A stretch of 42,037 nt of DNA from Lysobacterales bacterium (GTDB taxonomy: Bacteria > Pseudomonadota > Gammaproteobacteria > Xanthomonadales > SZUA-36), in contig JAOUCS010000018.1 in the NCBI GenBank assembly GCA_029859645.1, forward strand, positions 1 to 42,037. The letters run 5' to 3'. Positions 1 through 12,520 of the stretch are shown one piece after another (position 1 is the stretch's first letter; each line of letters opens with the position of its first letter). A program made the position numbers and the translations under genes. Below the pieces are notes generated by a model that was not told the DNA's origin, did no database searches, and saw nothing but the letters and a program-made list of their open reading frames with translations.

Positions 1-1199
1 CTGACATATAACTGCGCCTGCAACAAAACACTTTGATAATCTTCGGGCCGCACCCTGGCAGCTTCCTGGAGCAGTTTGAGGGCCTCACTAGGATTCCCTT
101 GCCTGATCCTGGTCCTGGCGAAAAAACACCAGGCCTCATACTTCCTGGGATCGATTTCCAATGCTTTTTCAAACGCCCTGGCGGCTTGTTCGCACTCGTA
201 TTCCATGCAATGAATGATACCCGAAGCAATGTGGGATTCAGCCAGTTTCGGGGCGAGAAGCAGGGCTTTTTCGCAGGCGCGCCGCGCCTCATCATGGTGT
301 GAAGCCGAAGCTTCAAAGTACATGTATGCAACCCCATGGGTGTAGGCCAGCCAGGCCCAGGCCCGGCCATAATTTGGATCGGCTTCAGTAGCCCGGCTGA
401 ACATCAAGGCGGCATATTTGAAGTCCCGGCAGTTGTGACGGGCAAAGTAATGCCGGCCGCGCAGGAAGAAATCATAGGCCCGGGGCGCAACCTCATGCTG
501 TTCGCGCAGGTGATTGTGCTTCAGCGTGAGACTCAACGCATCGACGATCTGGTTGGCAATATCTTCCTGAATCTCGAACAGGTCTTTTCGCTGGCGGTCG
601 TATTGGCGAGTCCAGAGGTGAAATCCATCTTCAGCCTGGATCAATTATGCCGTTACACGCAGATGCTCGCCGAATTGCCTGACGCTTCCCTCGAGCACGG
701 TCTGAACCTTGAGTTGTTTGGCAATCTCGGAAATATCGGCATGTTTTCCAGAAAAGCGAAACGCGGCCACCCGGGAGGCCACTCGCAGACCCGGAACCTT
801 GCAAAGGGAATTGAGTATTTCTTCTGCAATACCTTCACAGAAATAGGCCTGATCGCCATGCTCACTCATGTCATCAAATGGAAGCACTGCCACGGAAGGG
901 GCGGCAGAAATCATAGAGTTTCCTGATTGCATGCCCGGCAGTGGTGAATCGCTGGGATCCTTGATGATGCCTTCCGGTGTGACTTCATATGCCCAGGCCA
1001 GGACCAGGGCGATCGGAAATCCAAGGCAAACGATCACGATCAGCAGGGTCAGCGCCCAGGGCGGCAGGCCCAATGCCTCGAAAGTCACTTCGCCCACTTG
1101 CATCATCATCCAGCCGACGATCACATAGGCCAATCCTACGCGCATTACTTTGCGTCGATAGAACTGTCCCAGAAGTGACTTGTTGTCCTTGTCGGCCAT
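1..1199 (-). pseudogene. TolB-like/TPR membrane protein, interrupted by an in-frame TAA and cut by the window edge
   Basis: The first 184 codons (1199-645) encode an N-terminal cytoplasmic tail, two membrane helices (about residues 19-42 and 46-69), and a TolB/FlgO-like domain beginning SVAVLPFDDMS. That domain is the usual start of a large family of gammaproteobacterial TPR signalling proteins. The reading frame then meets TAA at 647-645 after RVTA. The same frame continues without any further stop to position 1 and reads as the expected rest of the family: LIQAEDGFHLWTRQYD, then TPR-like helices (for example ARAFEKALEIDP). Relatives normally have RVTAQLIQA, so the stop sits exactly at a Gln codon (CAA to TAA would suffice). 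The gene lies 51 bp downstream of the PrsW-like gene and may be co-transcribed. It could be a real nonsense mutation, a suppressed stop or a sequencing error. The C-terminus lies outside the window. Confidence 0.8.
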
Positions 1200-1228
1200 G
1201 ATTGAGCACAGGAAAACCTGTACCTCCT
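1197..1228 (-). promoter_or_regulatory. Shine-Dalgarno separated from its start codon by a small hairpin
   Basis: Reading the minus strand, a strong AGGAGGT (1228-1222) lies 22 nt before the ATG at 1199, too far for normal initiation. The first 14 of those nt (1221-1208) form a perfect inverted repeat, ACAGG-TTTT-CCTGT. Folding it would leave only 8 nt between SD and ATG, an optimal spacing. Seen directly in the sequence; the effect on translation is inferred. Confidence 0.5.
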
Positions 1229-1250
1229 CTACCTTAAGTATAGTGCAAAT

Positions 1251-2303
1251 TTATCGGCCGCTCTGGCTCTTTGTCTTTGCCCTGGTTCCCTGCCGGTCGA
1301 TCACGTGCATCTGCCACAGGTCTTTTCTCTCGATCTGGAGAAAGGGCTTCATAGCCAGGCATCCAGTTTTACCAATACTGTTTTCCAGGTAGCGCAGCTC
1401 TTCGAATTTCTCTCGCGTGCGTTCGCCAACCGGCAACTCAAGGCCGTTTTCACGGGCGATCAGCGCCGCTTTGGCCCGAATGGCCAGTTCTGTGTAAACC
1501 CGCAGATAACAGAGCATATCCACGACAATCGGACCTTCGAATTTCTCCCGCAAATCATCCAGGAATTCACCAATCTTCGACTCCGTGAAATGGCCGGATT
1601 CGATCATCGCGATCAGGTCCGCATCTGCGTCGAAATCCAGTTCCAGCCATTCATGCAAAGCCTGCGAACTCTTCTGAAAAACCAGTTGCAGCAGGAAGGG
1701 TAAAATGACCAGCGTTCCGACAGTCTGCAGCACGGGCGCGACGAGGAAATGATTGAATACCGAGTGCAGAAACACGGCGACTATCAAGCCGGGAAGATAG
1801 TAAAGAGGATTGATTTTCATCTGCCGCTCGGTCAGCGCCTGCGACATGATGGCAAAGATGGCGGCCACACCGCCGTGCATGATTGCCGTGCCAAAGCCAC
1901 GGACTACCCAGACCGCGAAACTGGCAGAGGACTGCATCTGCAGGTATTGGAGGTTCTCAACCAGGGCAAAGCCCGCCCCGACTGCAAACCCCATAATGGC
2001 CGAATCAACCAGGAATCCGATCCGGTTGGACCGAAACAGGTAAACAATAACCGACGCCTTGAAAATCTCCTCTACCCAGGGTGCAAGGTAGCGGGCGAAT
2101 GACTGAAAGGAAATATCGAACACGTTCAATAACGCGCCATTGACAACCATCGCAGCAATCGCGGTCAAGCCACCCATCACAATAACAGCCAATACGGAAC
2201 GGAGGGTGACCAGCTTGTAGCTGTCCATGTATACCAGGATAACCAGGAATATAAGTACGGGTAACAGGCCGACGGGCGCCCTGGCGAGAAGTTCCAGTGA
2301 CAT
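1251..2303 (-). CDS. PrsW-family intramembrane protease
   Basis: Multi-pass membrane protein of 350 residues carrying the PrsW/CPBP-type catalytic signatures: EE at 78-79 (WVEEIFK), FALVEN at 112-117, a membrane histidine in MHGG (H143), and HSVFNH at 180-185. PrsW in Bacillus makes the first cut in the membrane anti-sigma factor RsiW, releasing an ECF sigma factor. Here the gene lies directly downstream, on the same strand, of an ECF sigma/anti-sigma pair, so the anti-sigma factor at 2426-3160 is the obvious candidate substrate (inference). The hydrophobic part ends near residue 215. About 135 mostly charged residues follow, making it longer than the roughly 220-residue Bacillus protein; the role of this tail is unknown. 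No convincing Shine-Dalgarno precedes the ATG. Confidence 0.82.
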   Translation of the reverse strand: MSLELLARAPVGLLPVLIFLVILVYMDSYKLVTLRSVLAVIVMGGLTAIAAMVVNGALLNVFDISFQSFARYLAPWVEEIFKASVIVYLFRSNRIGFLVDSAIMGFAVGAGFALVENLQYLQMQSSASFAVWVVRGFGTAIMHGGVAAIFAIMSQALTERQMKINPLYYLPGLIVAVFLHSVFNHFLVAPVLQTVGTLVILPFLLQLVFQKSSQALHEWLELDFDADADLIAMIESGHFTESKIGEFLDDLREKFEGPIVVDMLCYLRVYTELAIRAKAALIARENGLELPVGERTREKFEELRYLENSIGKTGCLAMKPFLQIERKDLWQMHVIDRQGTRAKTKSQSGR

Positions 2304-2391
2304 TGCGTTTATATATTTTTGTTCGCGATTTTCGCGGGCAGTTCTGCTTTCAGATCTGTAGTATAACGATTTTCGCGCTGCCCATTGTCAC

Positions 2392-2431
2392 TGAGATGGA
2401 CAATTTCACATTGAGATGGACAATATCACTT
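2392..2431. repeat. Two 20-bp tandem direct repeats at the 3' end of the anti-sigma gene
   Basis: Two adjacent 20-bp units, 2392-2411 and 2412-2431, both begin TGAGATGGACAAT and differ at only a few positions. The second unit overlaps the last codons and stop of the anti-sigma gene. A second short repeat (the 10-mer CGATTTTCGC) occurs on both sides of the following intergenic segment, near 2328 and 2368. The pattern resembles repeated transposase-binding ends of some insertion sequences, but no transposase is present. Confidence 0.55.
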
Positions 2432-3160
2432 GAAGTCGATACTGATAGACCCGTCCGGGGCCGGACTACTGACCCCGCCTTCGCGCAGGAACACCGCAAA
2501 TTGCTGGTGTCCCTGGTTTACCACACGCAAAGTCCCCCCGGACATCGATACTGACTCAACGACCTTGTCCGCATTACCCTGGACTTCAGCAAATCCGCCG
2601 AATGCATAGCCGGTATCGTCGAGACCCACTTCAACTTCAGTTCCTGTCTCTGAGTTGAGATCAAAATTCAGAACATAGATACCGGAGTTTTCTCTCAGCG
2701 AAATCGTGCCGGAAAACCCCTCCCCATTCAGAACCATGTCATTCTTAAGAAAACCCGGCGGCTCCTGCTGGCCTGCAATCATCGTACCCACCATGCTGGC
2801 TGCATCATCCGAGACCGGACGGTCGGAGGAAATTTCATAAAACGCGACGGTCACTACCAAGCCCGCTGCAAAGGCAGCACCGACCGCGGCAGGCTGGATG
2901 GAGGGAAGCCATCCGGAGCCGAAGAAAGACGCTTTTTTGGCAGGCAATTTGATCTGTTGCAGAACCTGGCTTGCCAATTCAACCGGCGGCTGCTGCGCAG
3001 GTAGCCCTTCCATCAGGTTGGTTAACTTGAGCAACTCGGCATTCATCGCCCTGGCCTCGGCGGAGGACTCCAGGATCGCATCGAGTTCTGCCTGCTCGCC
3101 CGGGCCTAACTCGCCATCGATCGCGGCATTGATGAGTTCCAATGTTCGTTCATTAATCAT
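2426..3160 (-). CDS. Membrane anti-sigma factor
   Basis: A 244-residue protein with an N-terminal alpha-helical anti-sigma-like domain (about 1-60), a single membrane segment (about 88-108) and a periplasmic domain (about 110-244) rich in beta-prone sequence. It starts 12 bp after the ECF sigma gene stop, the standard sigma/anti-sigma gene order. The N-terminal helices (for example DGELGPGEQAELDAIL) look like the anti-sigma helical hairpin. The zinc-binding HxxxCxxC motif of ZAS-type anti-sigma factors is absent, so binding would be zinc-independent. The downstream PrsW-like protease suggests control by regulated proteolysis (inference). The periplasmic part has no family I recognise and could be the stress sensor. 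Confidence 0.75.
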   Translation of the reverse strand: MINERTLELINAAIDGELGPGEQAELDAILESSAEARAMNAELLKLTNLMEGLPAQQPPVELASQVLQQIKLPAKKASFFGSGWLPSIQPAAVGAAFAAGLVVTVAFYEISSDRPVSDDAASMVGTMIAGQQEPPGFLKNDMVLNGEGFSGTISLRENSGIYVLNFDLNSETGTEVEVGLDDTGYAFGGFAEVQGNADKVVESVSMSGGTLRVVNQGHQQFAVFLREGGVSSPAPDGSISIDFK

Positions 3161-3172
3161 ATGAATCGTTCC

Positions 3173-3715
3173 TCAATAAACTCCACGAGCCTCGAGCGCC
3201 TCTCGCATGATCTGGCGGGCCGAGTACAGCCGTGATTTCACGGTTTTTTCCGGAATCTGCAGAATTTCTCCTATCTGCCTGTAACTACATTCCGAAAAAT
3301 GACGCAGTACAACCACGGTGCGGTAGTCCTCTTTCAACTCCATCAAGCCGCCCTGAATTTGCCTGGACAGATCACCAGCATGCGCCGTTGCTTCAGGCCC
3401 CCGGGTATCTGCAACCTCTGTTTCGTCCAGCGGCTGCTGATTTTTCCCGCGCTTCAGCTGGTTGATGGATTCATTAACTGCAATTCGATAAATCCAACTG
3501 AAAAATTTGTACTTCGGATCGTATTGATCCAGACGCTCAAGTGCCCGCATAAAAACAACCTGCGTTATATCGGCTGCATCATCCGGATTACCCATAATCC
3601 GGTAGGCGGCATTGAATATGGGCTTCTCGTAATGCCTGACCAATTCCTCGAGCGCCCGTCGGTCACCCTGCTTACATCGCTCAATGAGTGCCTGATCACG
3701 ACCGCCATTACTCAT
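3173..3715 (-). CDS. ECF-type RNA polymerase sigma factor
   Basis: 180-residue sigma-70 family protein with only regions 2 and 4, as in extracytoplasmic function sigma factors. Region 2 covers about residues 22-92 and includes the DAADITQVVFMRAL and FFSWIYRIAVNESINQLKR segments. Region 4 covers about 125-175, with a helix-turn-helix YRQIGEILQIPEKTVKSRLY. It should direct core polymerase to stress promoters when freed from the adjacent anti-sigma factor. It lies 44 bp downstream of the STAS gene, so the partner-switching genes and the sigma genes may form one transcript. Target promoters cannot be identified from this window. Confidence 0.93.
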   Translation of the reverse strand: MSNGGRDQALIERCKQGDRRALEELVRHYEKPIFNAAYRIMGNPDDAADITQVVFMRALERLDQYDPKYKFFSWIYRIAVNESINQLKRGKNQQPLDETEVADTRGPEATAHAGDLSRQIQGGLMELKEDYRTVVVLRHFSECSYRQIGEILQIPEKTVKSRLYSARQIMREALEARGVY

Positions 3716-3759
3716 AACTACAGATCACACGCATAAAAGTTGGAAAAAAAAAACTGAAA

Positions 3760-4050
3760 TCATAAGGTTCTGATGACAAACAATTTGTCAAATCCCGAGT
3801 ATCGGAAAATATCGCCGATATGCTTATTGACATTGACCAGTTCCAAACCGGACTCGCCGCCCATCAATCGTTTGTGAGTACTGAGCAAAACACCCAGCCC
3901 GGCGCTGGAAATGTATTCCAGCGCGGCAAGATCCAGCACACAGCCATCTGTCACCAAATCCAGAAAATCCTGTGCCTTCTGCGCTTGTGCCGCATCCAGC
4001 CGCCCTTTCACCGCGACCTCGCCCGATTCCTTGAATTCAATTTCGAACAT
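3760..4050 (-). CDS. STAS-domain anti-sigma factor antagonist
   Basis: A single 96-residue STAS domain like SpoIIAA/RsbV. The phosphorylation segment YISSAGLG (46-53) contains the conserved serine that partner kinases modify. In its unphosphorylated form such a protein binds the RsbW-type kinase and displaces its other partner. The gene starts 9 bp after the RsbW-like kinase stop and belongs to the same operon as the PP2C phosphatase. No classical SigB-like factor is encoded nearby. The downstream partner may be the ECF system or something elsewhere in the genome. Confidence 0.9.
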   Translation of the reverse strand: MFEIEFKESGEVAVKGRLDAAQAQKAQDFLDLVTDGCVLDLAALEYISSAGLGVLLSTHKRLMGGESGLELVNVNKHIGDIFRYSGFDKLFVIRTL

Positions 4051-4059
4051 TCCGTTACC

Positions 4060-4467
4060 TCACTCCGCCACGACCCGGTTGGTGAAAGCTATTTTGCTCT
4101 TTCGGTCGTCGTATTCATAGTGTATCGAGTCCGCCATTTTCAGGACCAGGTAAAGCCCCAGTCCGCCGGGTGTTCGTTCAGACAGCGGTGCGTCTATGTT
4201 CACATCGCCGGCCAGCGTCGGATCGAATCGCTCCACGTCGAAATCCGTCAGGCTCACCTCGATACCGTGGTCGATTTTTTTCATCTCGATCATGATGTCC
4301 CGGTCGGTTTCCGTGTTGTAATTCACCATGTTTACAAAGAGTTCTTCGATCGACAAGTCGACTTTCATCCGCAGCGAGCTATCGATACCCTGCTCGTCGA
4401 AAAACTGTTCTGTATCCTCGACAATCACTTCGATCTGTTCGAAACTCCGCGGATAATACTTTTTCAT
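4060..4467 (-). CDS. RsbW/SpoIIAB-like serine kinase (GHKL ATPase)
   Basis: A stand-alone 135-residue HATPase_c domain. The N box is EELFVNMVNY (41-50), with the catalytic Glu and Mg-binding Asn. The G1 region is DFDVERFDP (75-83), and the G2 box is GGLGLYLV (101-108). Family members phosphorylate a STAS antagonist and sequester a sigma factor or other target. The usual DxGxPFDP signature of G1 is degenerate here, lacking its glycine, which might alter nucleotide binding. Its ATG overlaps the stop of the upstream phosphatase gene (ATGA), indicating translational coupling. Confidence 0.88.
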   Translation of the reverse strand: MKKYYPRSFEQIEVIVEDTEQFFDEQGIDSSLRMKVDLSIEELFVNMVNYNTETDRDIMIEMKKIDHGIEVSLTDFDVERFDPTLAGDVNIDAPLSERTPGGLGLYLVLKMADSIHYEYDDRKSKIAFTNRVVAE

Positions 4468-5738
4468 CCGTTCTCCTCCGAAAGTCGCTTGACCAGGACC
4501 AGGGTAATATCGTCCTCCTGGGAAACACCCTCGCCGTGTTCTAAGGTAGCCCGCAAAATCTGCCGGGACAGTTCAGCCATCGGCAACCGGTGGTGGTATT
4601 TAACCAATTGGGCAACACGATCTTCCCCGAACTGAACGCCCTGGTTGCTTTCGTATTCATACACGCCATCAGATAACAACACCAGCAAGTCGCCCGGTGC
4701 CATTTTAAGGACTTCCGCCTGGCCCGTCTCCTGCAACTCGAGAATACCTACCGGGAAGGTCGTGGGCCGGAACCAGTGACAGCTTTCATCCGTTGCCCGG
4801 AAATGCAGGATGGGACCCTGCCCGCCCGAGTGATAGCGGATTTCATTCCGTGACAAATCGAGGAATCCCATGAAGGCCGTGATAAATCGATCGTCCGGCA
4901 GGTCTTCGGCCACCTGGTTGTTGACGTGCAGGTACGCTTCCTCGAGATTGGCGCCGCAGCGAAAAGCCACCCGCAGCATGGCCTGCATCTGCGTCGCGGA
5001 CAGCGCCGGTCCAAAACCATGGCCAGTCGCATCCCCCATCAGGATGAACAACTCTTCGCCCAACACGACCAGGTCAAACAAATCACCACCCGCATGCCCG
5101 GTGGGCACGAAGTGACCAAATACATCATAGCCTGCAACTTCAGGCATCTCGGTGGGCAGGGTACTCATCTGGATTTCACGGGCCAGCGACACCTCCTCAT
5201 CCAGGCGTTCCTTGAGCAGCAAAGCCTCGGTCAACTGCATACGCTGCACCGCCACGGCACATTGAGCCGCCAGCGTGGACGCCAGCAGTTCATCACTTTC
5301 ATCAAACGGCCCGGTCGACTTGTTCGCCAATTGCAGCACACCAACCGGTTGTTTTTCCCAACCCAGCAGCGGCACATTCAGCACGGATTTGGTTTTGTAA
5401 CCGGTAGCCTTGTCCACCGTCCTGGTAAATCGCGGGTCGGCATAAGCATCTGCAACATTGATGGTTTCACGAGTCACGAGACATTCGCCCACCAGCCCCT
5501 CGCCGGCCGCCAGGCGCGGTGCCGGCTTGAAGGCCGGTACTTTCATGGTGAGCTCGTCCCTGGCCGGGTCATAAATCCAGAGAGAAGCCTTGTCCGCTGC
5601 CAGGACCGTTTCACCGGCCTGGACCACTTCTGCCAGCAGATGCTTCAGGTCATAGGGCAGCGCCAGTTTCTGCGTAACATCGAGTATATGAGCCAGAGCA
5701 GCCTGGCTCAGCCGCGGTGCATCGATCGCCTGGTTCAT
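4464..5738 (-). CDS. GAF-PP2C phosphatase (SpoIIE/RsbU type)
   Basis: A 424-residue sensor phosphatase. A GAF domain (about residues 30-170) is followed by a short coiled linker (about 172-192) and a SpoIIE-type PP2C domain (about 205-420). Metal-binding segments are visible: GHAGGDLFD, GDATGHG and LLSDGV, with QEDDITLVLV near the end. It should dephosphorylate the phospho-STAS protein encoded two genes downstream in response to a GAF ligand or partner. I place the start at the ATG at 5738, which has GGGAGAG 10 nt upstream. The frame is open to an ATG at 5792, but that lacks a ribosome binding site. The GAF ligand cannot be predicted. Confidence 0.88.
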   Translation of the reverse strand: MNQAIDAPRLSQAALAHILDVTQKLALPYDLKHLLAEVVQAGETVLAADKASLWIYDPARDELTMKVPAFKPAPRLAAGEGLVGECLVTRETINVADAYADPRFTRTVDKATGYKTKSVLNVPLLGWEKQPVGVLQLANKSTGPFDESDELLASTLAAQCAVAVQRMQLTEALLLKERLDEEVSLAREIQMSTLPTEMPEVAGYDVFGHFVPTGHAGGDLFDLVVLGEELFILMGDATGHGFGPALSATQMQAMLRVAFRCGANLEEAYLHVNNQVAEDLPDDRFITAFMGFLDLSRNEIRYHSGGQGPILHFRATDESCHWFRPTTFPVGILELQETGQAEVLKMAPGDLLVLLSDGVYEYESNQGVQFGEDRVAQLVKYHHRLPMAELSRQILRATLEHGEGVSQEDDITLVLVKRLSEENG

Positions 5739-5872
5739 ACCTGGATAACTCTCCCGAGGGGGCAGCGGAACGCACAATGTAACAGAGATCATCCATCGAT
5801 GAATTTTTCTCTATTAACATTAACTATCAATCGAATTGGAACAATCGATTTCTTTTATCGAAACGACCCGCC

Positions 5873-5878
5873 TACAAT
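5873..5878 (+). promoter_or_regulatory. Possible -10 element for the peroxiredoxin gene
   Basis: TACAAT lies 33 bp upstream of the peroxiredoxin ATG. The -35 position holds only a weak TTCTTT at 17-bp spacing, so an activator may be needed. The upstream 40 bp contain three ATCGA motifs that might be part of an operator. Confidence 0.3.
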
Positions 5879-5910
5879 GGCGCCATCATTTAAACAGGAG
5901 TAATCAAGCC

Positions 5911-6453
5911 ATGACCGAAACTCATTTGAACCCAGTACCTCATGTCGTTTTCAAAACCCGGGTACGGGACGAATCTGTCGAGGGTCCAAACCCGTTCCGC
6001 TGGCAGGATGTCAGTTCCGACGACATTTTTGCAGGAAAGAAAATCGTGGTCTTCGCGCTACCCGGCGCATTTACTCCTACCTGTTCCAGCACTCACCTGC
6101 CCGGATTTGAAGAAAAGTACGAAGAATTCAAGGCCCTGGGGGTAGACGAAATTTATTGCCTGAGTGTGAATGATGCTTTCACCATGTTCCAGTGGGGAAA
6201 ACACCAGGGCGTAGAAAAGGTCAAGCTGCTGCCGGACGGAAGCGGTGAATTTTCCCGCCTGATGGGCATGCTGGTCCGCAAGGACAACCTCGGCTTCGGC
6301 GATCGTTCCTGGCGATATTCGATGCTGGTCGAAGACGGCAACATCAAGGCGCTGTTTGAAGAACCAGGAAAATGTGATAACTGCCCGACCGACCCTTTTG
6401 AAGTCAGTGATGCCGGCACGATGCTGAATTTCCTGAAAGCACAACAGGGTTAA
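5911..6453 (+). CDS. Peroxiredoxin, Prx5 family
   Basis: A 180-residue thiol peroxidase that reduces hydrogen peroxide and organic hydroperoxides. The peroxidatic Cys58 lies in PGAFTPTCSSTH, with the Pro-x-x-x-Thr-x-x-Cys signature and downstream Prx5 blocks (LSVNDAFTMFQWG, DGSGEFSRLMGM, VSDAGTML). Cysteines in GKCDNCPTDPFE near the C-terminus are candidates for the resolving role. The start at 5911 is chosen because AACAGGAG precedes it; an upstream in-frame ATG at 5836 would add 25 residues without homology. No glutaredoxin domain is fused. The gene is divergent from the phosphatase operon, so its regulation may be separate. Confidence 0.92.
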   Translation: MTETHLNPVPHVVFKTRVRDESVEGPNPFRWQDVSSDDIFAGKKIVVFALPGAFTPTCSSTHLPGFEEKYEEFKALGVDEIYCLSVNDAFTMFQWGKHQGVEKVKLLPDGSGEFSRLMGMLVRKDNLGFGDRSWRYSMLVEDGNIKALFEEPGKCDNCPTDPFEVSDAGTMLNFLKAQQG

Positions 6454-6510
6454 CAGGGTCCTCTGATATAGTAATCTCTTGATTGTTTAATCATTGAGGA
6501 GAGACATCAG

Positions 6511-12136: not shown

Positions 12137-12520
12137 TCAGCCTTCAGCAGCTGCTTTACGTTCCTTGTAACCACGGACTGCAGCGTTAAAACGTTCAGCG
12201 ATGCGCTCTTCCATTTCGACCGAGTAATTGAAAGAAGCTACGATAGCCGCCTTGTTACCGGGCGTGTTATCCGGGTCAGCCTCGGCCGCCTGCAGGCACT
12301 CACGAAAACCGACGACTTCCTCCTGGAACACGGCGATCTGCTTCTTCGCATTGACCAGATCATCATAAACCGCTTCTTCCGGAATGGCGTCCGGAGATGT
12401 AGGAAGAACACATTTCTGGGCAGCTTCGGGCAATACCTGCTCATAATCCGCGTCATCGTCCTGGGCAACAACATTGGCGCACAATACGGCTGCAGCAAGC
12501 AAAGTAAAAATTCGTTTCAC
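12137..12520 (-). CDS. Small exported protein of unknown function
   Basis: 127 residues starting at GTG (12520), with AAGGAG 7 nt upstream. The N-terminus is a typical signal peptide (MKRIFTLLAAAVLCANVVAQ) with cleavage likely after ANVVA. The mature protein of about 108 residues is acidic at its start (DDDADYEQ), contains two cysteines (in QKCVLP and FRECLQA) that could form a disulfide, and appears mainly alpha-helical (EERIAERFNAAVRGYKERK). I recognise no family. It lies 44 bp upstream of the serine hydrolase gene on the same strand. Confidence 0.7.
   Translation of the reverse strand: MKRIFTLLAAAVLCANVVAQDDDADYEQVLPEAAQKCVLPTSPDAIPEEAVYDDLVNAKKQIAVFQEEVVGFRECLQAAEADPDNTPGNKAAIVASFNYSVEMEERIAERFNAAVRGYKERKAAAEG

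Follow-up and report, generated by a model that had tools for sequence, protein, structure and literature searches.

A conserved gammaproteobacterial locus joining a predicted Rsb-type partner switch to an ECF sigma factor, its putative membrane anti-sigma factor and a PrsW-family protease

When a partner-switching module lies next to an extracytoplasmic function (ECF) sigma factor, a membrane anti-sigma factor and an intramembrane protease, do these genes form one regulatory system or two that happen to be neighbors? We address this question for a six-gene locus at positions 1251-5738 of contig JAOUCS010000018.1 from a Lysobacterales bacterium (assembly GCA_029859645.1). The window, by which we mean the whole 42,037-nucleotide stretch of DNA analyzed, is the entire contig (C198 in our numbering) of a genome of 3.84 Mb in 255 contigs, with a completeness of 95.7%. 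The six genes encode, in order, a PP2C phosphatase, a HATPase kinase, a STAS protein, an ECF sigma factor, an anti-sigma factor and a PrsW-family protease. The original prediction was that Rsb-type and PrsW/ECF logic are combined here in a single gammaproteobacterial locus, and we find that the combination is conserved as a unit. We lean modestly toward the view that the locus feeds two inputs into the control of a single ECF sigma factor and is reduced from an eight-gene locus.

A PrsW search of 39 genomes of the family returned a match in 24, whose surroundings were then compared. The two halves, which had been proposed to belong together, are indeed neighbors in relatives: all 13 family loci that span the interval from PP2C to the anti-sigma gene keep the window's order on one strand, with PrsW downstream. 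The same association appears genome-wide in a survey of 398 genomes of the order, in which we required E ≤ 1e-15 with the kinase alignment and E ≤ 1e-30 for PrsW. The kinase occurs in 24 of the 398; an orthologous PrsW (53-100% identity; a fragment in G003) is found in 23 of these 24 and in 0 of the 374 kinase-free genomes. The kinase-bearing genome without PrsW, G021, has a completeness of only 65%, with a contig that terminates in the peptidase/barrel gene described below. Among the kinase-free genomes, G005 and G009 have only a paralogue of 43-47% identity, and G025 has a 29-residue fragment (E 5e-5). Kinase and PrsW share one contig in 16 genomes and lie on two contigs in seven, where the kinase contigs stop at the ECF gene, the anti-sigma gene or a repeat gene; this last gene often breaks the assemblies of relatives, which is consistent with split loci.

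Beyond the order, a scan of GTDB representatives with the kinase as seed gave 55 loci, mostly in gammaproteobacterial metagenome-assembled genomes, as are nearly all of the named relatives. They include Halioglobus pacificus KCTC 23430 (L112), which has the six-gene form, and records of Eisenbacteria (L120), Caldithrix (L121) and KSB1 (L122), the three other-phylum records all ending before the end of the locus. Where the position could be tested, the kinase is preceded by PP2C in 46 of 50 loci and followed by STAS in 53/53, by the ECF gene in 51/51 and by the anti-sigma gene in 44/44; PrsW is present in 26 of the 28 loci with room to judge. Kinase seeding favors switch-bearing loci, and reciprocal seeds were used as well, with PrsW in the order and with the peptidase (PEP, below) in 369 genomes of the class. 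Judged by this gene order and co-occurrence, the six genes are a conserved unit in which PrsW is genetically tied to the ECF/anti-sigma pair in Gammaproteobacteria.

What, then, are the parts? All six open reading frames lie on the minus strand, and their coordinates and Pfam assignments confirm the co-directional arrangement with small gaps that had been described. The run begins with a GAF and PP2C/SpoIIE serine phosphatase (4464..5738; Pfam GAF 7e-19, SpoIIE 2.6e-37), for which the alignment favors a start at 5738 over an alternative upstream ATG at 5792. Its gene overlaps by 4 nt that of a HATPase_c_2 serine kinase resembling RsbW/SpoIIAB (4060..4467; Pfam 1.5e-13), and after a gap of 9 nt follows a STAS protein (3760..4050; Pfam STAS_2 2.7e-11) with the conserved serine site YISSAGL. 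The composition of an Rsb-type switch (PP2C, HATPase_c_2, and STAS with a phospho-acceptor serine) is therefore present. A pattern search recovered the serine site in 51 of 54 relatives, and the remaining three read ISSGG or ISSVG by eye; because the site, ISS[AGV]G, is so conserved, phosphorylation of the STAS protein is plausible. A Pfam scan of the six proteins found no group-3 (SigB/SigF) sigma factor, the sole sigma factor being the ECF protein.

The kinase departs from the Rsb pattern in one respect. Its N and G2 boxes are intact in the alignment, and the degenerate G1 box that had been pointed out is real: LTDFDVERFDP stands in place of DxG, so that the canonical N, G1 and G2 set of Rsb-type kinases is incomplete. 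Among the kinases of the wider loci, the DxG glycine is absent in 38 of 53 readable relatives and present in 15. The nearest solved chain is RsbW (6m36, E 0.19), and the scores against the RsbW equivalog profiles are far below the cut-offs (20.7 vs 145 and 20 vs 155). Most relatives read D[FY]D, and four kinases from loci of the same type (L114, L116, L117 and L118) have a canonical DDG or DNG G1 box.

The ECF gene (3173..3715; Pfam Sigma70_r2 2.5e-16, r4_2 6e-14) follows STAS after 44 nt. Its product has regions 2 and 4 only in Pfam and scores 106.6 bits against TIGR02937 (cut-off 42.9), which places it in sigma factor group 4, the ECF group. The SigW profiles NF007223 and TIGR02948 rank first and second among the 107 profiles matched, at scores below their equivalog cut-offs (130.8 vs 209 and 116.5 vs 243.1 bits), and the protein may already hold a group number in the 157-group ECF classification. 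The gap ahead of it contains a predicted ECF promoter, CCAACTTTTATGCGTGTGATCTGTA (3719..3743, minus strand), at a position conserved across the family loci: in 14 of 14, the window included, [CTA]CAAC[TC]TT...GTA lies between STAS and ECF, followed within 0-3 nt by the start codon of the ECF gene, and in the window the ECF ATG begins 3 nt past the GTA. A strict, in-frame version, AAC-N17-GTA-N3-start, is found in 42 of 54 wider loci, including the Eisenbacteria, Caldithrix and KSB1 records. Of the 12 loci outside the strict pattern, eight keep a CCAAC box with small changes (by eye), L111 has the motif with its frame broken by the contig end, and L119 is without the CCAAC box; the examined stretches of L107 and L113 stop short of the ECF gene. 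In the window's genome the element with its start codon occurs once, at the ECF gene, as does a reversed control, and the weight of the element therefore lies in its conservation and not in its rarity. The −10 part resembles the CGTA of SigW promoters. The −35 part matches the SigW consensus, quoted as TGAAACXTTT in the consulted portion of the source (PMC6713349), at AAC-X-TTT. Because the start codon follows the GTA so closely, a leaderless ECF transcript is likely. An Rfam scan of positions 1000-6500 gave zero matches at the gathering threshold, and a sigma-70 promoter scan gave 2 matches against a shuffle mean of 3.4 and is thus uninformative about promoters for PP2C or PrsW.

The anti-sigma gene (2426..3160; matches of 2e-7 and 7e-7 to anti-sigma profiles of NCBIfam, both below cut-off) begins 12 nt behind the ECF gene. 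One transmembrane segment by hydropathy, an N-terminal cytoplasmic domain and its position beside the ECF gene mark its product as an ECF membrane anti-sigma factor in the wide sense. The missing zinc motif, remarked on from the window alone, proves to be a family-wide trait: HxxxCxxC occurs in 0 of 46 anti-sigma factors over their whole length and CxxC in none, and with 16.6 bits against zf-HC2 (E 0.008, cut-off 22.2) the window protein falls outside the zinc-associated anti-sigma (ZAS) factors. On the periplasmic side of the membrane it carries a juxtamembrane MVGT motif (residues 123-126; 2783..2794, minus strand), identified by alignment and survey, of which G125 and T126 are invariant in a 14-row alignment. 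The pattern [VASI]G[TS][IVLM], about 9-21 residues past the transmembrane segment, is found in strict form in 34 of 46 anti-sigma factors; in 11 of the other 12 a T, S or A comes after the G (by eye), and the exception is the truncated L107. The motif is retained in the anti-sigma factors of loci without the two extra genes described below, where PrsW is also retained, and we infer that it may mark the PrsW site or a docking tag.

The last gene (1251..2303), 122 nt beyond the anti-sigma gene, encodes an intramembrane protease of the PrsW family that ends in a helical tail (residues 223-350). It scores 74.7 bits against the PrsW-protease family PF13367 (cut-off 23.5; E 9.5e-21). The motifs given for the family in the consulted portion of one paper are EExxK, a fifth-helix His and HxxxD/N (PMC4602095). 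In 25 aligned sequences the corresponding E78, E79 and K82 (2058..2072, minus strand), H143, and H180 and N184 (1752..1766, minus strand) are invariant, with N instead of D. A structure model (mean confidence, pLDDT, 78) matches APH-1 with Z 16.0 and a root-mean-square deviation of 4.9 over 200 residues, which indicates a CPBP/APH-1-like fold; rows beyond APH-1 and the translocon/BOS group begin at Z 9.6, and a Foldseek search with the model gave nothing below E 0.001. Against NF033739, the equivalog profile of the B. subtilis type, the protein reaches 37.9 bits where 225 are needed. The locus members are thus PrsW-family and ECF proteins, not SigW, PrsW or RsbW equivalogs, and not ZAS factors. 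A second, unlinked PrsW paralogue of 43-47% identity has the same C-terminal tail (G000:C203:457-1464; L027, L052) and also occurs in G003, G005, G006, G009 and G042, two of which (G005 and G009) are without the kinase. We considered this paralogue as the true partner and rejected it: in the loci read, which comprise the copies other than that of G042, it is flanked by a threonine-dehydratase-like gene or by transporter or other genes, and an ECF gene is nowhere in view.

Is the six-gene form the complete one? In same-genus genomes and many others the full order is PP2C-HATPase-STAS-ECF-anti-sigma-(REP-PEP)-PrsW, and the interval at 2304..2425 of the window is where, by locus comparison, many relatives hold these two genes, one for a repeat protein (REP) and one for a peptidase/propeller/barrel protein (PEP). 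REP has an N-terminal membrane anchor, a conserved GT[IV]xPAERYRGEQI...LGDE..AQ.MQTD segment and then usually tens of repeat copies, whose period is mostly 9 (8 in L073, 10 in L090, 11 in L121 and L122) and whose letters vary between taxa. Like the anti-sigma factor, it carries a juxtamembrane GT-type motif, 7-11 residues past the anchor, in 33 of 34 cases. PEP, of about 985 residues, has an HExxH motif (H127, E128, H131) and an E181 that are invariant in 22 sequences, a propeller that matches TolB (4jml; Z 21.9, root-mean-square deviation 2.7 over 239 residues) and a C-terminus with long predicted beta strands and a weak, sub-cut-off match to Omp85_2 (0.013). The calls of a metallopeptidase and a barrel stem from HExxH/E181, the predicted strands and this weak match, the structure lists being filled by the propeller. 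PEP is found in 12 of the 39 family genomes, in 11 of which it is adjacent to PrsW and without a second copy. The PEP seed in the class genomes returned full-length PEP in G402, G562 and G413 only; G562 has the full eight-gene order, and the G402 contig is too short to judge. Distant PEP cousins, mostly of about 950-1000 residues, occur in 31 class genomes (e.g., L258-L265), and among the eight of these regions that were read none has the remaining locus genes in order, one weak PP2C match (46 bits) appearing in L259.

By this comparison of gene content, the window's locus is a reduced version of the eight-gene locus. PrsW directly follows the anti-sigma gene, without REP and PEP, in 6 of the 55 loci and in the window, and at least one of these cases is a loss: in L086 (G022) a relic of the last PEP codons (ISLKIL-stop) stands ahead of PrsW at 12405 as a deletion scar. 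Misassembly of the 122-nt gap is less likely than true absence, because a search of the window's genome, at 95.7% completeness, turned up PEP on none of its contigs and because the same-genus L030/L069 shows the same adjacency. Just behind the anti-sigma stop codon lies a 13-bp direct repeat, TGAGATGGACAAT (2392-2404 and 2412-2424, plus strand), which may be the scar of a deletion or of an insertion element.

These features suggest how the locus might work. In the resting state, the anti-sigma factor would keep the ECF sigma factor at the membrane. PrsW would cut the anti-sigma factor near the periplasmic juxtamembrane VGT, further proteolysis would release the sigma factor, and the freed sigma factor would transcribe its own gene, the anti-sigma gene and its targets. 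Between them, the GAF phosphatase and the HATPase kinase would set the phosphorylation state of the STAS protein, and unphosphorylated STAS (or free kinase) would act on the anti-sigma/PrsW assembly, setting the threshold for release. We regard the proteolysis half of this proposal as fairly probable, and hold with similar confidence that the switch acts on the same pathway as the PrsW/ECF half. That the target of the switch would be the anti-sigma factor or PrsW, rather than the ECF sigma factor itself, is a tentative choice, with the odds somewhat against it. More speculative, and on the unlikely side, is an extension in which one PrsW would read a juxtamembrane GT[IVM] tag on both the anti-sigma factor and REP. 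Release of the sigma factor and of REP would then be one event, an outer-membrane PEP would mature or export REP, the switch would set the gain, and the window's lineage would have kept the circuit and lost the surface product.

Several observations weigh against, or qualify, a two-input regulator of this kind. The single co-directional run that had been proposed stands as far as conserved order and strand go; because a conserved promoter-like element belongs to the ECF gene itself, a single simple transcript covering the switch half and the ECF half is improbable. PP2C is not adjacent to the kinase in L104, L119, L120 and L122 (in L119, L120 and L122 no phosphatase reading frame was seen upstream of the kinase), and L075 and L093 have PEP with no adjacent PrsW. 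The complete genome G413 (L256, G413:C3) has the ECF gene, the anti-sigma gene, a gene for a short anchored protein, PEP and PrsW and no switch, its single kinase-like gene (C33) lying elsewhere in a different STAS/ABC context; the protein at the REP position is lipoprotein-like and keeps AAGTIMAAKR, without such repeats. Going by this variant, the ECF half can do without the switch; in our reading the PrsW/ECF half would be the core, to which the switch would add a cytoplasmic input. The unlinked paralogue has the PrsW tail too, even in kinase-less genomes, which argues that the tail is not a dedicated docking site for the switch. B. subtilis PrsW acts on the product of an unlinked gene, so linkage alone is no proof of the substrate. 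A mirror-tree comparison of 24 loci and the window (L090, L107, L118 and L123 left out beforehand) is likewise equivocal, its 25 rows sharing one history: the expected pairs reach 0.28 (HATPase-STAS) and 0.19 (ECF-cytoplasmic part of the anti-sigma factor), and STAS with the cytoplasmic part of the anti-sigma factor gives 0.24, while HATPase-ECF and STAS-ECF stand at −0.13 and −0.02, and the top partner of HATPase is the membrane part of PrsW at 0.46, which may merely reflect a shared clock. Finally, the enrichment of CCAACYTTT-N13-GTA is modest: across the 39 family genomes it has 75 matches and the reversed pattern 58, and in the window's genome the counts are 4 and 3; most matches away from the locus may be due to chance, and the case for targets rests on location. 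A looser form of the element is not found in 16 of 34 REP regions, those of the window's genus among them.

Other explanations must be weighed against the same evidence. Since PP2C/HATPase/STAS sets are common in general, as are ECF pairs and PrsW, the six genes could in principle be a chance cluster of unrelated regulators in one genome; nothing was found in favor of this, and the 13/13 locus order, the 23/24 versus 0/374 co-occurrence and the tallies from the wider loci reduce this to a negligible probability. A more serious alternative is that the switch and the ECF half serve one envelope programme without touching, the output partner of STAS being elsewhere, for instance a protein ending in PWGW (see below) or an enzyme. 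A separate promoter element ahead of the ECF gene and the switch-less ECF half of G413 would fit such an arrangement, and among the known partners of STAS proteins are enzymes such as SiaD, as the consulted part of one report indicates (PMC9239204). For independent systems, however, the order kept across phyla and the near-complete co-occurrence are unusually tight, and we consider this explanation rather unlikely.

It is slightly less probable still that the HATPase is a second anti-sigma factor that binds the ECF protein directly, as RsbW binds SigB, with STAS freeing the sigma factor and PrsW acting separately on the membrane anti-sigma factor. The kinase belongs to an RsbW-like family with intact N and G2 boxes, and STAS and ECF genes are adjacent in 51 of 51 loci. 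However, the ECF protein already has an adjacent anti-sigma factor in 44 of 44 loci, and its lack of region 3 matters here, the known HATPase targets being sigma factors with that region; the partial correlations of HATPase and STAS with ECF are also about zero, compared with 0.19 for ECF and the cytoplasmic part of the anti-sigma factor, in what is a weak test. We also find it improbable, if not by much more, that PrsW is mainly a protease for REP processing or export, with another site-1 protease cutting the anti-sigma factor and the window's PrsW a leftover. REP does carry a juxtamembrane motif of this type (33/34), PrsW follows PEP in 20 loci, and PrsW has been proposed, in the consulted part of a survey, to process exported proteins (PMC3482391). 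Yet PrsW is kept in the six loci and the window after REP and PEP are gone, the PrsW sequences of these loci that are in the alignment share the invariant catalytic motifs, and their anti-sigma factors retain the GT motif.

If the ECF sigma factor is released in the way that the two-input proposal envisages, which genes might it serve? A differently written promoter pattern recovers the same four sites in the window's genome (control 2), namely the ECF gene, a gene whose product ends in PWGW, an ABC exporter and one site without a clear gene; the element precedes the ABC exporter in four same-genus genomes, the window's included. Across the family, 11 of the 75 matches are followed within 1.2 kb, on their own strand, by a gene ending in PWGW, compared with an expectation of 0.036; two of these 11 come from genomes without a detected kinase (G001 and G019, 89% and 87% complete). 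By DNA pattern there are 73 such gene ends, in 34 of the 39 family genomes; the PWGW pattern itself has 93 matches against 12 in the control, so some may be due to chance. The proteins are small, with one N-terminal hydrophobic stretch (e.g., G000:C108 (L174), L154, L157, L161, L177, L180, L194 and L195). Two of them were scanned and had no Pfam match, and no use of the word PWGW was found in the titles and abstracts returned by a literature search. Within the locus, nine loci have a second copy of the element in the anti-sigma/REP gap, and the looser pattern is found in 18 of 34 REP regions versus 0.7% of shuffled stretches, the L100 match lying inside a reading frame and probably due to chance. 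The gap is short in the window's genus, and REP may there be carried on the transcript of the ECF gene. In genus g9, where PEP was not found, matches exceed the control across six genomes (24 vs 5; 22 vs 2 without G019). By eye, the element there stands ahead of a family-2-glycosyltransferase-like gene in G017:C107 (L162), G018:C90 (L171) and G019:C81 (L182), sites that are a possible replaced regulon.

On either side of the six genes lie a divergent peroxiredoxin gene, upstream, and a TPR-like gene downstream of PrsW (3-1199), which is interrupted by the contig end and has the same position in the same-genus L030.

How does the locus compare with known systems? It resembles SigW-RsiW-PrsW plus an Rsb switch. 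With the Bacillus subtilis system it shares an ECF sigma factor closest to SigW, a membrane anti-sigma factor, a PrsW-family protease and an AAC-X-TTT −35 element. It differs from that system in that PrsW is linked to the ECF pair (in Bacillus, prsW is unlinked to it), the element begins with CC and not GA, the anti-sigma factor is without the zinc motif, a partner switch lies upstream, and the proteins score below the SigW and PrsW equivalog cut-offs. With RsbU/RsbP-RsbW-RsbV of SigB it has in common a sensor-domain PP2C, a HATPase kinase and STAS in one block; here, in contrast, there is no SigB/SigF-type sigma factor, the ECF protein has its own anti-sigma factor, and the kinase has a sub-cut-off score and an altered G1 box. 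EcfG-NepR-PhyR (ECF15) is the only partner switch on an ECF sigma factor named in the consulted portions of two reviews (PMC8999054, PMC8103513). Its anti-sigma factor is soluble and its antagonist is a sigma-mimicking response regulator, whereas the window's anti-sigma factor has a transmembrane segment and no receiver domain was found among the six proteins by Pfam. SiaABCD of Pseudomonas aeruginosa is likewise a gammaproteobacterial PP2C/kinase/STAS trio with a non-SigB output; that output is a diguanylate cyclase, and the consulted part of the report names no ECF, anti-sigma or PrsW protein (PMC9239204). In a survey of polymorphic toxins, again as far as its consulted part goes, PrsW is tied to the release of other proteins and PrsW domains are known as fusions to cytoplasmic signalling domains (PMC3482391), whereas the window's PrsW is a separate protein beside an ECF pair and Pfam found no toxin domain in the six proteins. 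Judging by titles and abstracts, we found no description of this locus, and the six-gene control circuit is apparently undescribed.

In our analysis many bacteria, among them Halioglobus pacificus KCTC 23430, inherit one ECF sigma factor jointly with an Rsb-type switch and a PrsW module. Natural variants, with and without REP and PEP and with and without the switch, separate the parts of the locus, and the promoter element, the PWGW membrane proteins and the ABC exporter offer a regulon prediction. If both halves converge on one sigma factor, the locus would offer a direct way to study the integration of cytoplasmic and envelope signals ahead of sigma factor release and to ask which protein a linked PrsW cuts.

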